From Humisphaera borealis (GTDB lineage Bacteria > Planctomycetota > Phycisphaerae > Tepidisphaerales > Tepidisphaeraceae): a DNA stretch of 64,000 nucleotides. The first letter of the stretch is position 1, and each line of letters opens with the position of its first letter. Below, piece by piece: positions 40,016-47,450 of this stretch. The position numbers were made by a program, and so were the translations under genes. The notes under the pieces were generated by a model. That model made no database searches. It was given only the letters and a program-made list of their open reading frames with translations, and was not told where the DNA came from. The DNA lies in the NCBI RefSeq assembly GCF_015169395.1, contig NZ_CP063458.1, forward strand, positions 5,952,001-6,016,000. Direction: 5' to 3'.

Positions 40016-40096
40016 CAAGTTGTACCAAAGCCCACGGACAGCAGTCCCTGGGGCGAAGGCCCACCGACTGCTGTTGGCGGGCGTCTTGGCAACTTG
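40016..40096. repeat. Degraded CCCACGGAC-family inverted repeat
   Basis: The arm 40016-40046 (with CCCACGGACAGCAGTC) and the arm 40066-40096 (GACTGCTGTTGGCGGG...) are imperfect reverse complements. The unit ends 5 bases before the rbfA-like start. The same family lies within ispA and after dxs. Confidence 0.7.
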
Positions 40097-40101
40097 TGAA
40101 C

Positions 40102-40647
40102 ATGGCGCGTGAACTCCGAGTCCCCGGCGCGGACCAGGGAACATTCTTTGTGAGACATTCCAACCGTAGGAACAAGGGCCGCGCCCGCAGGGCGCCGGCC
40201 GGGTCTGCTTTGGACCGAGATCTGTTCGAACAGGCCCTTCGGGGCCACAGCGGCGCATCGGGCGAGTCGTTTGACGCCGCCCACGACCGCAAGACGCTCC
40301 AACTCTGCCGACAGGTGGAGCGGGCACTCTCGCTGGCGCTGGCCGGCGATCGTCACGAGGTGCTGCGTGACCTTACCGTTGACGCCGTCGAGCCGATGGG
40401 CTCGGCGGCGCAGCTTCTGGTGCGCGTGCTGGTGCCGGCGTCGGTGGAGGTCTCGGTGATCGAAGTCATCGGGATTCTCGACGGGGCTTCGCCCCGGCTG
40501 CGCGCCGTCGTGGCGCAGTCGATCTGCCGAAAGCGCACGCCGTCGCTTAGCTTTCTGCCCGTGCCGTTGCGGGCAGGGAATCCGAGTGACGTAACCGACG
40601 CGGGAAACCACACCGCGAACCTGGAGGGGGGCGATCATGTCGAGTGA
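40102..40647 (+). CDS. RbfA-like ribosome-binding factor
   Basis: A 181-aa protein. The N-terminal 70 residues are basic and not conserved in appearance. The region TLQLCRQVERALSLALAG through VVAQSICRKRTPSLSFLPVP (about 65-155) follows the RbfA KH-like pattern, including its closing RKRTPSLSF strand. RbfA binds the 30S subunit near helix 1 of 16S rRNA during maturation. The C-terminal end overlaps rtcB by 11 bases, so translation is probably coupled. Whether this is the housekeeping RbfA or a specialised paralogue cannot be decided here. Confidence 0.7.
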   Translation: MARELRVPGADQGTFFVRHSNRRNKGRARRAPAGSALDRDLFEQALRGHSGASGESFDAAHDRKTLQLCRQVERALSLALAGDRHEVLRDLTVDAVEPMGSAAQLLVRVLVPASVEVSVIEVIGILDGASPRLRAVVAQSICRKRTPSLSFLPVPLRAGNPSDVTDAGNHTANLEGGDHVE

Positions 40648-41827
40648 CAACGAAGACTTGCCCGCGTCCGTCACGTCCGTCGCGTCCGCCAAGGCGGACC
40701 CTACAGCGCCGACACTCGCCACTTGGCTCGCGTGGCCGCTGGACACACCGGTGAAGAACGCGATCGACCGCGCCCTGCATGCCGACGACGTCGTTCATGT
40801 TGCCGTCATGCCGGACGTTCACCTGGCGACGGATGTCTGCGTCGGCACCGCGATGGCGACCCGCCGGCTGGTCTACCCGTCGGCGGTGGGGGGCGACATC
40901 GGCTGCGGCATGCTCGCGATCGCATTCGACGCGACAGCCGACCTGCTGCAAGACGCCGATCGCGCGGGGCAACTGCTCCGCGCGATCGGCCGGCGGGTGC
41001 CGTCGCACCGGCGGCATCGCACGGCCAGGTTGCCGATGCCGGTCGATTGCGTCGCAAGCGATCTCTCGCATCCCGCACTCGTCGCCGCCGCCGGCGACGA
41101 TGGCGGCCTGCAGTTCGGGACGCTCGGCGGAGGCAATCACTTCGTCGAACTTCAGGCCGATGAAGACGACCGCCTGTGGCTGATGATCCACAGCGGCTCC
41201 CGCGCGATGGGCCAGGTCGTGCGCTCGCACCACGTAGCCCGCGCGACGCGGGGCGCAACCATGCCCTTGCTGGATACGGAAACGGACCTGGGCCAAGCCT
41301 ACCTCAACGATCAGGACTGGGCTCGCCGCTATGCCCGCGGGAACCGTATCGCGATGGCGGAGCAGGTGTGCGAAGCGATACACGAACTGACCGGCGTGAC
41401 GCGAATCGAATCGTCACTCATCGAATGCGATCACAACCACGTGCGGCGGGAAGCGCATTTCGGCGAGTCGCTGCTGGTGCACCGCAAAGGGGCGACGCCC
41501 GCCGACGACGGCCTGGCCGGCGTGGTGCCGGGGTCGATGGGGACAACCAGCGTTCACATCGTCGGACGGGGTGAGCCGCAGTCGCTCCGCAGCAGCGCCC
41601 ACGGCGCGGGAAGGCAAATGTCGCGAACGGTCGCCCGCGAGCGCTTCGGACGTCATGAGGTGCGCAGGCAGATGGCTGACGTCTGGTACGACCCGCGAAT
41701 TCTTGACGCGATGCGAGAGGAATCGCCCAAGGCGTACAAGGACCTGCGCGCGGTGCTCAAGGCGCAGGAACCGCTGATGAAGGTGACAAGGCGACTGCGG
41801 CCGCTGCTCGTTTACAAGGGGAGTTGA
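40637..41827 (+). CDS. rtcB: RNA ligase RtcB
   Basis: A 396-aa GTP-dependent RNA ligase joining 3'-phosphate or cyclic phosphate to 5'-OH ends. The metal-site motif GGDIGCGM (85-92, Asp87 and Cys90) and GGGNHFVEL are visible. SSAHGAGRQMSR carries the His that forms the GMP adduct. An unconserved linker (1-28) precedes the domain; its codons 16-23 are one arm of the GGGTCCGCC repeat seen at 1317-1417. It is translationally coupled to the RbfA-like gene, which suggests RNA repair on the small subunit. Confidence 0.93.
   Translation: MSSDNEDLPASVTSVASAKADPTAPTLATWLAWPLDTPVKNAIDRALHADDVVHVAVMPDVHLATDVCVGTAMATRRLVYPSAVGGDIGCGMLAIAFDATADLLQDADRAGQLLRAIGRRVPSHRRHRTARLPMPVDCVASDLSHPALVAAAGDDGGLQFGTLGGGNHFVELQADEDDRLWLMIHSGSRAMGQVVRSHHVARATRGATMPLLDTETDLGQAYLNDQDWARRYARGNRIAMAEQVCEAIHELTGVTRIESSLIECDHNHVRREAHFGESLLVHRKGATPADDGLAGVVPGSMGTTSVHIVGRGEPQSLRSSAHGAGRQMSRTVARERFGRHEVRRQMADVWYDPRILDAMREESPKAYKDLRAVLKAQEPLMKVTRRLRPLLVYKGS
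40680..40705. repeat. GGGTCCGCC-family repeat arm inside rtcB
   Basis: Twenty-six bases are identical to 1392-1417. Here the arm is translated as ASAKADPT in the N-terminal linker of RtcB, next to near-tandem GCGTCCGTC words. Confidence 0.85.
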
Positions 41828-41833
41828 ATGTCG

Positions 41834-42946
41834 CTATGCCGCACGCCAGGCGCCCTTTGGGCTTGCGAGCATCTCAGGCTGAAGGATGCTGCCGGCGGGA
41901 ATGGCCTGGCTGGTGCGCTGGCCGATGACCTCGGCCCAGTGCGCCGCCGAAACACCGGTGCCGGGGCGCTGCACGGTCAGGTCGTCGTGGCGGATTTCCT
42001 CGCCGGCCAGGAGTGTCCGGCGGACGACCAGACTCTGGCGGCTGACCTTGCGGACGTCCTTCTCGCACTCCAGCAGATGTTTCGCAGAGCTGCCGCGGAG
42101 CAGGTCGGCCTCTCGAATACTCTTCACGTAGCGCTCGAAATGGTGGGGGTCGGCACTGGCCGAATGGTCCGGGCCACGGGCGCTGCGATCATAAGTAATG
42201 TGCTTCTCCACGATCGTCGCGCCGGCCATGACCGCCAGCGCGCCGGCTGTTGCGTGAGTGGTGTGGTCGGAGAAACCCACCGGCACGTCGAATGCCCGAT
42301 CAAGCTCGGTCACCCATCCGAGGTGCGCATCGGCCAGTTCGCACGGGTAGCTGCTGATGCAGTGCAACAGCGAGATCCGCGCGAACGACTCCTTCATCCA
42401 GCCGACGGTCGCGGCAACCTCTTCCATCGTCGCGGCACCGGTCGACAGGATCATCGGCTTGCCCAGCTGCATCGCTTCGTACAGCAGCGGGCGGTTGACC
42501 AGGTCCGGCGAGGCGATCTTGATCGCCGGCAGACGCAATGCCGCGATGGTATCGACGTCGTTGGGCGAAAAAGGCGTGGCAAGGGGGATGAGCTTGGCTT
42601 CGAGAATCGCCTTGACGATGACACGAAGGTCTTCCCGGTTCAGTTCATAGCGGCGAAGCATGTCGACCGCGTCGGTCTCCCAAACGCGGTCCTTCTGATA
42701 GTTCGCCAGACTGCATGAGGGGTGCATGAGCGCGGTGGCGCGGAAGATCTGCAGCTTAACCGCATCAGCGCCGCATGCGGCCGCGATGCGGACCAGCTCG
42801 ATCGCCTTCTGCACGTCGCCGTCGTGATTCACGCCGATCTCGGCGATGACGAAGGTCGGCTTCCCCGGGCCGATGCTTCTGCCGGCGATATCGATGTGTT
42901 TGGCGGGCGAATGGGCGGTATCGCCGGGGACGATGGTTGGGTTCAT
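41834..42946 (-). CDS. neuB: N-acetylneuraminate/nonulosonate synthase
   Basis: A 370-aa enzyme that condenses phosphoenolpyruvate with an N-acetylated hexose to make a nonulosonic acid. The barrel domain starts FVIAEIGVNHDGD and includes DAVKLQIF, IKIASPDL, LSTGAATMEEV, GFSDHT and EKHITYDRSARGPDHSAS. A C-terminal SAF antifreeze-like domain (about 300-365) follows. Whether the product is sialic, legionaminic or pseudaminic acid cannot be settled by eye. It overlaps neuA by 4 bases. Confidence 0.93.
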   Translation of the reverse strand: MNPTIVPGDTAHSPAKHIDIAGRSIGPGKPTFVIAEIGVNHDGDVQKAIELVRIAAACGADAVKLQIFRATALMHPSCSLANYQKDRVWETDAVDMLRRYELNREDLRVIVKAILEAKLIPLATPFSPNDVDTIAALRLPAIKIASPDLVNRPLLYEAMQLGKPMILSTGAATMEEVAATVGWMKESFARISLLHCISSYPCELADAHLGWVTELDRAFDVPVGFSDHTTHATAGALAVMAGATIVEKHITYDRSARGPDHSASADPHHFERYVKSIREADLLRGSSAKHLLECEKDVRKVSRQSLVVRRTLLAGEEIRHDDLTVQRPGTGVSAAHWAEVIGQRTSQAIPAGSILQPEMLASPKGAWRAA

Positions 42947-43695
42947 GATGCTCTCCTGAGCCTGGCGTCTTCGCGGTCCTGCTCGGCCCGATCGGCTGCT
43001 TCCCGCATGATGCCGTCGGCGATATACAAATCGCGACGGCTGTCGATCTCGACCGTGTCTCCGGGTTCAACCGCGAATCCCCGGCGGTCGACGCCGAAGA
43101 ACGCGTGTGGATCAGATCGATTCGCCCGGCCCCGCTCCAGGCTCGCCCGCGTGACGGCGACCACGCCGCCGTCGTGCAGGAATAACGGTTCCAGGTCCTG
43201 CCGCCGGTGAATGCTGCCGGGCACCACGGCCTCAACGACGTCACCCTTCAGCCTCGACATCCAGCCCGGATGCCACTTGCCGACCGGGATAAAGCTGCGA
43301 ACCGAGTCGCAGCCGGTGCTTTCGAGCATCTCAATGGCCCGGTCGATACACGCGGCAGGGCGGATCGGCACATTGCCATAGAGCACCACGACGGCTTCGG
43401 CGTCGAATTTGTGCTGCACTTTCATCTGATCGACCGCATGCAACATGACATCCTGGACGCTGGCGGTATCGGTCGCGAGATCGGCCGGCCGCTCGACGGC
43501 GTCAAACCCGTTGGCGATCCCGAACCGGCGGACGAGCGGGCAGTCGCTCGAAACGACGACCCGCGTCAGCCGCCCGGCCGCGCGGGCGTGCTCCAGCGTG
43601 TACGAGATGACAGGGCGTCCCTGAAGCGTCAGGAGATGTTTGTTGGGCAAGCCCTTAGAGCCCGCGCGAGCCAGTACGACACCGAGAACGTTCAT
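42943..43695 (-). CDS. neuA: Acylneuraminate cytidylyltransferase
   Basis: A 250-aa enzyme that activates a nonulosonic acid with CTP. The nucleotide-binding start is VLGVVLARAGSKGLPNKHLLTLQGRPVI, followed by VVSSDCPLVRRF and VVLYGNVPIRPA. It is the partner of neuB (ATGA overlap). ATG 43695 gives the canonical N-terminus. A 40-base palindrome (43718-43757) separates it from the upstream spiroSPASM gene. Confidence 0.92.
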   Translation of the reverse strand: MNVLGVVLARAGSKGLPNKHLLTLQGRPVISYTLEHARAAGRLTRVVVSSDCPLVRRFGIANGFDAVERPADLATDTASVQDVMLHAVDQMKVQHKFDAEAVVVLYGNVPIRPAACIDRAIEMLESTGCDSVRSFIPVGKWHPGWMSRLKGDVVEAVVPGSIHRRQDLEPLFLHDGGVVAVTRASLERGRANRSDPHAFFGVDRRGFAVEPGDTVEIDSRRDLYIADGIMREAADRAEQDREDARLRRAS

Positions 43696-43717
43696 TATGC
43701 ACTCCATTGCATTGCAC

Positions 43718-43757
43718 AGCGTTCTTGTAGGGCGGGCACTGCTCGCCGAACAACGCT
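43718..43757. repeat. Near-perfect palindrome between the spiroSPASM gene and neuA
   Basis: AGCGTTCTTGTAGGGCGGGC pairs with the following GCTCGCCGAACAACGCT with a few mismatches. It lies in the 69-base gap inside the glycosylation operon. Confidence 0.55.
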
Positions 43758-43764
43758 TTGCGAC

Positions 43765-45414
43765 TTACGCCCTGTGCCACTCCTTGCACTTTGCGCAAAC
43801 TGCCAACTCTTCTAATCGGCCATCCGCGTGCAAATTCCGCAGTGCGGCAAATTTTGACTGCCAGATGTGAGATAGCGCATCGTCGCCGGTGCGTCCCTGT
43901 ACCTGACGACCGGCGACGTCCTGCTCGCAGGTGGTGAAGCACCCGTCCGACAGCACGGCCAGGCGTTCCCGCAGTCGCCGGCAGGGCACACGCAACGGCG
44001 GCGACATGTCGGCGACCGCCACATCGGGAATCAGCCCGGCGAATGTGCTCGGCCCCAGGATGACCGCCGAACCGACCGCGCGGAGCCACTGGTCATACCA
44101 GGGTTCCATCTCCTGCAGGTTCTGTCGGCATTTGGTGAACAACGGGATCACCAGCGGAGTTCCCCGATTCAGCGCCGCCCGCCGGGAGACCAGCCCCTGC
44201 ACGTTGCCCAGCGCCAAAGCGTAGGCATCGACGCCCATGACTTGTGCGTAGGTCTGCGCCGCGAGCGCCGGAAGGTGAATCGACACCAGGTCCGCCGGGG
44301 ACTCGGCGAGCGCGGCGATCCGTTCGCCGTCGCCCGACAGCAAGTCCGTCTCGACATTGACCGCAATGCCATGGCCGGCGGCATGGCGGATGACCTCAAT
44401 GCAGTCGGCGTGTAGCAGTGGGTCGCCCACGCCGGCCAGCGTAAGCCGGGTATCGTCCAGCGCCGCCATCTCGTCGATCAGCCGGCGGGCAACATCCAAC
44501 GGCAGGTCGGGGCGATCCGTGGCGGCCGAACCGGCGGGGGAGAAGATGGGTCGGGAGTCGCGGCGGGTGGTCAGTTCCAGGACGACTTCGCGGGGGAGAT
44601 CGCCCCCGGGCACACCGCTTTGTGCCCCTGCGGCCATCCGCGCCACGATCGACTCGGCGTCGGTGCCGACGAGTTGGCCGTTCAGGTCGGCCGTCGCCGA
44701 CTCGACGCGGGCGATCTGCCGTTGCGACGTCAGCGTGTATCGATGAACGGATCGGGCGACGGTCGTCGGTGTTGCGGCGCAGCCGTCCTGGGCGATCGGC
44801 TCTCGGCTGACCTGGTCGGGGAAGTAGTGCAGCAACCGGCCCGGATGGCTGTTGGCGGCAGCCAACCGGTCGACCAAGGCACGTGGCAGCAACATCGCAC
44901 CCAGTCCCGTCGCCGCAGGCGTGAACACGAACTCGGCCGCGGGCTTCGCGTCGAACTGGGTGATGACAGCCGACAGCAGCGCCGGATCGACCAACGCCGC
45001 GGCCGGATCGACCAGCAGCACGGCCTGTGCATTCCACTGCTCGGCGACGGCCTTGACCGCGGCCGGGTGAAACCCGGCGTCGAAAGACGACGTTCCCAGC
45101 GGCCCGCCGCGCCACCCGTCCGCCCATCGCCGGGCGGCGGAGACAGCGTCCATCGCAGGGCATGCTTGGCGAGCACCCTGGCTGATCACCTCCGCACCCG
45201 CGGCCTCGGCAATCGGCCGGACTGCGGGCGCCTGGTCGTCCCAGCAGAGCAGGGCGATCGCGCCAACGGCGTCGCACCGCCGCACCCGCCGTAAGGTCCA
45301 GGCGAGCACCGGTTCGCCGCGGAACTGCCGCGTAGCGCTGTTCTCGGTCGCACGCTCATGGAGCAGGGACACGAGCGTGAGGATGGAGGTCGAGGTTGTC
45401 ATACCAGGTGGCAT
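43765..45414 (-). CDS. spiroSPASM-like protein: NTP-transferase-like plus cysteine-less radical-SAM-like plus SPASM
   Basis: A 549-aa protein. The N-terminal part (about 25-240) resembles a cytidylyltransferase-like fold (RQFRGEPVLAWTLRRVRRCDAVG). The middle (about 275-460) has a radical-SAM-like start, VVLELTTRRDSRPIFSP, but no CxxxCxxC, so it should not bind the SAM cluster. The C-terminus keeps SPASM-type cysteines at 478, 492, 496, 540 and 543 (CAKCKEWH). This matches the spiroSPASM description known from spirochaetes near flagellar genes. Its ATG shares one base with the maf stop (TAATG). Confidence 0.72.
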   Translation of the reverse strand: MPPGMTTSTSILTLVSLLHERATENSATRQFRGEPVLAWTLRRVRRCDAVGAIALLCWDDQAPAVRPIAEAAGAEVISQGARQACPAMDAVSAARRWADGWRGGPLGTSSFDAGFHPAAVKAVAEQWNAQAVLLVDPAAALVDPALLSAVITQFDAKPAAEFVFTPAATGLGAMLLPRALVDRLAAANSHPGRLLHYFPDQVSREPIAQDGCAATPTTVARSVHRYTLTSQRQIARVESATADLNGQLVGTDAESIVARMAAGAQSGVPGGDLPREVVLELTTRRDSRPIFSPAGSAATDRPDLPLDVARRLIDEMAALDDTRLTLAGVGDPLLHADCIEVIRHAAGHGIAVNVETDLLSGDGERIAALAESPADLVSIHLPALAAQTYAQVMGVDAYALALGNVQGLVSRRAALNRGTPLVIPLFTKCRQNLQEMEPWYDQWLRAVGSAVILGPSTFAGLIPDVAVADMSPPLRVPCRRLRERLAVLSDGCFTTCEQDVAGRQVQGRTGDDALSHIWQSKFAALRNLHADGRLEELAVCAKCKEWHRA

Positions 45415-47450
45415 TACGCCCGCCCCGCTGGTGTGGAGCCCAAGGCAGCGCCGCGGGCGTTTGCGGAAGCGACTTCGCGTCTCTGGTCGCTCTGTAAGCT
45501 AGCGGCCACCTCATCCATCAGCTCTGCAAATCGCGCCGCCGCTTCCATCACGCTTCTCACGTTCGCGATGTCCCGGTCCACCTGCCGTCGCTGACGCTCG
45601 GTCGGGTCGAGCTTGGCCATCTTGATCCGCCGATCCGCTTCGAACCGGCTGAGCTGTGATTTCTGCGTCAGTTCCGTGACCAGGTCGTACGTCGCGCCGA
45701 ACCGGTTCATCTCCGCGCGCAGCGCATCGATTTTCGTGATCGCCTGATTCACCTTGTTCTGGTCGTTGATATGGTCACGAATGGTTTCGAGCAGGGGCAA
45801 GGTCTGACGACTGATGTCTTCAATGCCTGCCGCTTCATCCCGCCGCTTACGCAGGCTGGCGGCACAGTCGGCCGTGCGGTCCCAGCGCGATCCGCCATGG
45901 TCGGACAGATCGACCGGAAACGACTCCTGGCAGTGCGCGTCGATCGCGTCGGCAAGCGGCATGGACTTCGCGCCGCGCTTGGCGGCACCGCCTTCGGTGG
46001 CATCGATGATCGTCCGCTTGCTCTGCAGGAAGTCGCGTTCGAATTGCTGCAGGTAGGTGAACAGCCGCTCTTCGGTGTACATGGGCCTGCCCTGGAAATC
46101 GGGGATTCGGCGAAGAATGAACCGCTCGCGGACGATCTGGTCCCACTGCTTCATCTCGGGCGTGCAGAACCGTCCGAACTCCGGCCGCCAGACGTCTTCG
46201 TAGCTGGTGCCGGGGGCGTAGCAGAGCCCGTCGGAGAACCCCAGATCCTGACCGAGGAAAATGATCGGGTCGCAACCGAGCCACTCGGCGAGGTAATACG
46301 CCAGGTGCGCGACCGTCGCCCCCGGCGGCAGCTTGGCCTTGTTCGGTTTCATCTCGCGCAGCAGCGATTCGGCGAAGTTGCTCCCCAGTAGCGATACGTT
46401 GCCGTCAAGCATCGCGAAGATCCTGCTCGTCGCTTTCGGCTCGGCCACCAGTTCCGTGCGCAGCCGGCGACGTCCGTCGCCATAGGTTTTCGGCAGGTTC
46501 TCAAAAAACCGCGTACAGATCTCGTGGTAGTCCAGCGACGTGACAAAGTGCGGCTCAATGCCCATTTCGAGCAGCGGCTTGAGCGTCGTCTGCACTGCAA
46601 TGATGACCGCCTTGTCCTGGATTGCCGGCAGCAGGTGCTTGTTCTTCCGGAGCGAAGGCCCGGCCGACACGATGATCGCGGGCCTGCCCGCGAAGCGGTC
46701 TTTCAGCCGGCTCATGCAGGGGCTGGCGACGTACCAGCCGATGTTGCGGGCAATGTTCTCGGCGGTCTTGGCGCTGTTGAGCAGAAACGTGTTCAGGCTC
46801 GTACGCGCGAAGCTCGCGAACTCGGCAAGCCACTGCTTGTACTGGGCGTGGAATTCAGGCGCGACCTGCAAACTGGGCCCGTGTTCAATCGTCGTCGTCC
46901 CGAGCGAGAACATCGCCAGGTGCGGCTGCAGCCGGTCGAGCAATGCGGCTTTGTCGAGCGTGGTGAAGAAGCCCAGGCGATTGGCGGACAGCAGCTTGCT
47001 GAAGTCGCGCAGCTCGAACGCCGTCCGTAACAGCCGCAGGTCTGGCTCGAAGACAAAGATCGGGGCCTCGTCGCCGGATCGGGCGGCGAGCGCCTCCACG
47101 TGATACCCCAGCCCGAAGCCATGCACGTAGTAGATGGCCGGCTTGTCGGCACTCGCGGAAGAAACCAGGCGATCCGCCTCGGCGATCGGATCGTACTTAC
47201 TGTGGAGTTGCACCACGCGGCCGCCGGCCGAAGCCGGCAGCGCGATCGTGGCGACGCCGGTTTTGGCGGTTGCCGCCGGGTAGGGTTCGTCGATCGCCTC
47301 GATCCGCCGGGCCAGATCGGCGTCCAGCGTCCAGAGCACCTCGAGATTCTTGAGGTACGGTGCATCCTCCGGCAGAACGTACCGCCGGTCCGCGCTGGCC
47401 GGATCGGCGTTGATCGTGGCGTCGGGAATGGCGGACGTTGTTGCGGCCAT
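45414..47450 (-). CDS. maf: Motility accessory factor (Maf/DUF115) flagellin nonulosonate transferase
   Basis: A 678-aa cytosolic protein with the DUF115 domain: RPAIIVSAGPSLRKNKHLLP (about 260-280), VTSLDYHEICTRFF, VAHLAYYLAEWLGCDPIIFLGQDLGFS and a GTSYEDVWRPEF stretch. Maf proteins transfer pseudaminic or legionaminic acid to flagellin Ser/Thr. The C-terminal 150 residues are helical. It is the first gene of the leftward maf-spiroSPASM-neuA-neuB operon, which fits nonulosonate modification of flagella. An alternative family name is MptE-like. Confidence 0.9.
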   Translation of the reverse strand: MAATTSAIPDATINADPASADRRYVLPEDAPYLKNLEVLWTLDADLARRIEAIDEPYPAATAKTGVATIALPASAGGRVVQLHSKYDPIAEADRLVSSASADKPAIYYVHGFGLGYHVEALAARSGDEAPIFVFEPDLRLLRTAFELRDFSKLLSANRLGFFTTLDKAALLDRLQPHLAMFSLGTTTIEHGPSLQVAPEFHAQYKQWLAEFASFARTSLNTFLLNSAKTAENIARNIGWYVASPCMSRLKDRFAGRPAIIVSAGPSLRKNKHLLPAIQDKAVIIAVQTTLKPLLEMGIEPHFVTSLDYHEICTRFFENLPKTYGDGRRRLRTELVAEPKATSRIFAMLDGNVSLLGSNFAESLLREMKPNKAKLPPGATVAHLAYYLAEWLGCDPIIFLGQDLGFSDGLCYAPGTSYEDVWRPEFGRFCTPEMKQWDQIVRERFILRRIPDFQGRPMYTEERLFTYLQQFERDFLQSKRTIIDATEGGAAKRGAKSMPLADAIDAHCQESFPVDLSDHGGSRWDRTADCAASLRKRRDEAAGIEDISRQTLPLLETIRDHINDQNKVNQAITKIDALRAEMNRFGATYDLVTELTQKSQLSRFEADRRIKMAKLDPTERQRRQVDRDIANVRSVMEAAARFAELMDEVAASLQSDQRREVASANARGAALGSTPAGRA

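Follow-up and report, generated by a model that had tools for sequence, protein, structure and literature searches.

A conserved gene pair coding for an RbfA paralog and an RtcB-family RNA ligase, with a possible role in repair of cleaved 30S subunits

RESULTS

Overlapping RbfA-like and rtcB genes in Humisphaera borealis

The window, a 64,000-nucleotide stretch of Humisphaera borealis DNA (contig NZ_CP063458.1, positions 5,952,001 to 6,016,000), contains two overlapping forward-strand genes, one (40102..40647) coding for an RbfA-like protein of 181 aa as annotated, and the other (40637..41827) for a 396-aa RtcB-family RNA ligase belonging to what is referred to here as the RbfA-linked clade. 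The first-pass annotation described an 11-base overlap between them, and both open reading frames are indeed present, with the overlap (40637..40647, forward strand) extending from the rtcB ATG to the TGA of the RbfA-like gene. A Shine-Dalgarno sequence for rtcB, GGAGG, is located on the same strand within the RbfA-like gene (40623..40627), 9 nt 5' of the RtcB ATG. The start of the RbfA-like gene is uncertain, with GTG codons at 40096 and 40150 as alternatives, and its relatives are mostly 130 to 150 aa long. Both reading frames have a coding-type pattern of G+C content across codon positions.

The pair is flanked at its 5' side by secA on the opposite strand and at its 3' side by a convergent neuB-like gene ending at 41834, so that it looks like a two-gene transcription unit. 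By inspection only, the reverse strand from 41834 to 47450 codes for the neuB-like synthase and for CMP-sugar synthetase-like, radical-SAM-like, and 678-aa DUF115-like proteins, a set resembling a sialic or pseudaminic acid glycosylation cluster.

The RbfA-like protein is a paralog distinct from canonical RbfA

The window RbfA-like protein matches the Pfam family RBFA (PF02033) at 13 bits (E value of 0.13), under the gathering score of 34.7, and some of its relatives score above this cut-off; when the 71 aligned family members are searched singly, 68 match PF02033 (E values up to 0.1; best, 1.2e-10). A profile of the 71 members has RbfA as its sole significant family among solved structures (2dyj, 1.5e-7), and this family profile was needed, as the window sequence alone gives only chance matches to solved structures. 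The AlphaFold2 model consists of an N-terminal tail (40102..40281, forward strand) of low confidence, and an RbfA/KH-type core (40282..40566, forward strand; approximately residues 61 to 155) with a helix-strand-strand-helix-strand order and pLDDT values mostly above 90. Foldseek matches the model to RbfA at 1.7e-5, and VIA-align superimposes it on Thermus RbfA 2dyj with a Z score of 12.8 and 1.7 Å over 88 residues. The same fold is predicted for a very divergent family member that lacks a Pfam match and comes from an Alteromonadaceae isolate. The RbfA assignment proposed from the sequence is therefore confirmed at the level of high-confidence structure prediction and its matches, and the predicted fold of the family is that of RbfA.

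The RbfA-like family shares with canonical RbfA (PF02033) its fold, core sequence pattern, and an invariant proline but differs from it in several respects. Column statistics show a conserved QLCRQV helix in the core and an R-K-R triad ahead of the invariant proline, and by the same statistics the family lacks the D...RI..LL signature found at the C terminus of canonical RbfA. The triad distinguishes the family from canonical RbfA, as does a helix 1 cysteine that is conserved in 88% of the linked members; many relatives also have a C....DDG.DPR motif in the N-terminal tail, which canonical RbfA lacks. The tail motif precedes the KH core in L078, L079, L083, L087, L095, L132, and other loci and is a candidate binding peptide.

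The H. borealis genome also contains one canonical rbfA, adjoining infB, so that the window gene is not the only rbfA in this genome, as the first-pass annotation had raised as a point to check. Canonical RbfA was found in 20 of 21 carrier genomes, and the RbfA-like family and canonical RbfAs form separate clades in a phylogenetic tree (SH-aLRT support of 99). The RbfA-like protein is thus a separate paralog and not the assembly factor, and the two also differ in their gene neighbors, rtcB for the RbfA-like gene and infB for canonical rbfA.

The linked RtcB is probably an active RNA ligase

The window RtcB matches PF01139 at 263 bits (5.9e-78; cut-off of 27), with intact active-site positions comprising the metal ligands D87, C90, H168, H185, and H266 and the guanylation site H322. 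These were matched by alignment to D95, C98, H203, H234, H329, and H404 of Pyrococcus horikoshii RtcB, which we take to be its metal ligands and guanylated histidine. The same positions are invariant in seven aligned members of the RbfA-linked clade, and with these residues both retained and invariant, the window RtcB is probably an active RNA ligase, as judged from sequence. The H. borealis genome codes for two RtcB proteins, of which this is one. All RbfA-linked RtcBs are in one clade (SH-aLRT support of 100), apart from the PrfH-linked, RtcA-linked, and viral RtcBs, with the order of branching among these clades uncertain owing to long branches. The match of the window RtcB to TIGR03073 (release_rtcB) is 146 bits, below the cut-off of 271.8.

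The ligase clade is always found with an RbfA-like gene

A scan of GTDB species genomes (as contigs) with an alignment of the ligase gave 80 loci that were kept. An RbfA-like gene is directly upstream in 76 of the 80 by profile, with L148 added by a better profile and L123 having a C-terminal RbfA-like remnant upstream at a contig edge, as judged by eye; L077 and L145 were left out of the count because their contigs begin within rtcB. The RbfA-like gene is accordingly directly 5' of the clade ligase in all 78 judgeable loci. Of 392 Planctomycetota genomes sampled evenly, 14 contain the ligase clade, each with an adjoining RbfA-like gene (14/14), and among 61 genomes comprising H. borealis and its relatives, nine have an RbfA-like match, all nine with the ligase adjoining. 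No RbfA-like gene was found beside other RtcBs in 102 control loci (0 of 80 viral and 0 of 22 other bacterial). For the linked clade the association is thus invariant and not random, the question that a survey of RtcB neighborhoods had been suggested to answer. As in H. borealis, the RbfA-like stop and the rtcB start overlap in the majority of pairs. An in-frame rtcB ATG or GTG lies no more than 14 bp from the stop codon of the RbfA-like gene in 69 of 77 pairs, compared with 21.5% of background windows, and 41 of these 69 have a 4-bp overlap. That the ligase clade is never found without the RbfA-like gene suggests that it depends on it.

The pair is present in Planctomycetota, Acidobacteriota, Myxococcota, Gammaproteobacteria, and other groups. 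Record titles of the Myxococcales carriers include isolates of Sorangium, Nannocystis, Polyangium, and Paraliomyxa, and other titles include Candidatus Parabeggiatoa, Kangiellaceae, Alteromonadaceae, Nitrospira, Riflebacteria, and Lentisphaerales. A third conserved gene was sought among 33 close same-strand neighbors, which have no relevant family in common, and the flanks vary by locus, indicating that the pair travels as a unit. Searches of plasmids, phages, and viral contigs did not reveal the linked clade, and the matches listed there are to other RtcB subfamilies at no more than about 40% identity.

RbfA-like genes without a nearby rtcB are common in some Planctomycetota (L047, L048, L051, L054 to L056, L058, L059, and L061 to L073, from several families of the phylum). 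The genomes checked that have such a stand-alone gene lack the linked RtcB clade, and nearly all have another RtcB. The protein is therefore not used only with the linked ligase, and it may also function by itself or in trans with other ligases. As a separate observation, L048, L051, L056, L061, and their relatives (family f41) have in-frame stops in the extended match, perhaps only past the ends of a short gene.

Comparison with known RtcB systems

The closest parallel is RtcB2-PrfH (TIGR03073 and TIGR03072), which rejoins 16S rRNA after cleavage by colicin E3 and protects Escherichia coli (PMC9223846). Both systems are two-gene operons with overlapping genes and a patchy distribution, and both combine a putatively ribosome-directed factor with its own RtcB paralog. 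However, the partner is a release factor in one and an RbfA-type KH protein in the other, the RtcB clades differ, and the two partner genes lie on opposite sides of rtcB, the RbfA-like gene upstream and prfH, in the loci seen, downstream. PrfH scoring over its cut-off is absent from the H. borealis genome and from the other linked carriers tested, with the exception of Alteromonadaceae M269. In this genome, rtcB2, prfH, an RNA ligase gene (PF09414), an HD-AAA_33 (HD-kinase) gene, the RbfA-like gene, and its rtcB are all organized in one direction, with RlaP upstream in the opposite orientation; rtcA, a third rtcB, and rtcR also lie within about 15 kb. The analogy to PrfH-RtcB that was drawn from the H. 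borealis sequence gains support from this placement of the pair beside rtcB2-prfH and other RNA-repair genes, in a cluster that represents a single genome. The M269 loci (L132, L261, and L262) place the whole RNA-repair cluster within about 25 kb, with three RtcB paralogs together.

The RtcA-RtcB-RtcR operon shares the RtcB ligase active site with the pair but has an RtcB of a different clade, and neither rtcA nor rtcR adjoins the pair in the loci examined; in M269, both systems are present, about 10 kb apart. RtcB-archease resembles the pair in that RtcB has a small protein partner, but archease belongs to a family unrelated to the RbfA-like proteins, and none is coded for among the close same-strand neighbors listed. 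No description of an RbfA-like/RtcB pair was found in the literature searched, although it may be mentioned in the survey of Burroughs and Aravind 2016 (10.1093/nar/gkw722). The two genes form a real and conserved module that is apparently undescribed.

DISCUSSION

The analysis establishes the genes themselves, the fold, the active-site residues, the linkage, and the separate clades; that the RbfA-like protein binds the 30S subunit, that the two proteins form a complex, and that 16S rRNA is the substrate is our inference. Canonical RbfA binds the neck of the 30S subunit, in the cleft that separates the head from the body, and its binding moves the tips of helices 44 and 45 (PMC8201178), close to where nucleases of the colicin E3 kind cut. 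On the most straightforward reading, the RbfA-like protein would carry the ligase to 30S subunits that have been cleaved. In the mechanism proposed, a diverged RbfA paralog and its dedicated RtcB ligase, which would join 3'-phosphate and 5'-OH RNA ends, would be translated together, and the RbfA-type KH domain of the paralog would most likely dock on the neck and decoding region of a 30S subunit that has suffered ribonuclease cleavage of its 16S rRNA, for instance within helix 44 or close to the 3' end. The docked protein would prevent the damaged subunit from entering translation and would bring the ligase to the break, which the ligase would then seal. We assign a probability of roughly 0.55 to the pair being a dedicated RNA-repair module of this kind, and repair of 30S subunits is its likely function. 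The one-sided dependence fits such delivery, with a ligase clade that never occurs without the RbfA-like gene and RbfA-like genes that are common without rtcB. The family lacks the D...RI..LL signature, and its ribosome contacts may therefore differ from those of canonical RbfA.

The same divergence can be read in another way, with the RbfA-like protein as an RNA-binding adaptor or cofactor of the ligase for a nonribosomal substrate (for example, tRNA cleaved by anticodon nucleases), and the KH fold reused to hold the ends of broken RNA or, as archease does, to increase ligase turnover. A KH-type fold that has lost the canonical C-terminal signature and gained an R-K-R patch is consistent with this role, as are the regulation of E. 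coli RtcAB-RtcR by damaged tRNAs (PMC7790460) and the precedent of archease, a small partner that RtcB can need (PMC10630183). However, the nearest fold and sequence relatives of the RbfA-like protein are all 30S assembly factors, the position of the M269 pair beside rtcB2-prfH points to the ribosome, and the comparable RtcB2-PrfH gives no protection against tRNA-cutting colicins (PMC9223846), and a nonribosomal substrate is thus unlikely.

A regulatory role or an assembly checkpoint, in which the RbfA-like protein aids the maturation of 30S subunits or keeps them inactive under stress while the ligase acts on general breaks, would make coexpression of the two a matter of a shared stress response and not of a repair complex. 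The known role of RbfA in assembly (PMC8201178) and the RbfA-like genes that stand alone are in keeping with this, but the ligase clade was in no case found without the RbfA-like gene, which suggests dependence, and the carriers keep a canonical rbfA for assembly; we regard this explanation as quite improbable. That a duplicated rbfA came to lie next to an rtcB by chance or for some trivial reason is refuted by the linkage in both surveys (78/78 and 14/14), the many phyla represented, the changing flanks, and the overlapping codons, and the probability of this is negligible.

Delivery of a dedicated RtcB to 30S subunits with cleaved 16S rRNA, which an RbfA paralog would recognize, is the preferred reading, and we hold at even odds the broader proposal that it represents a widespread and undescribed form of ribosome repair, a second and independently evolved counterpart to PrfH-RtcB2. 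Repair of 16S rRNA has already been demonstrated for PrfH-RtcB2, and the pair described here would be a second module in which the partner is a relative of an assembly factor and not a release factor. If this is correct, bacteria have evolved several routes for directing RtcB to damaged subunits, and the pair would be a compact two-protein system for studying how damaged 30S subunits are recognized. It would also provide a likely function for a large RbfA-like family whose members can be confused with the assembly factor in annotation.
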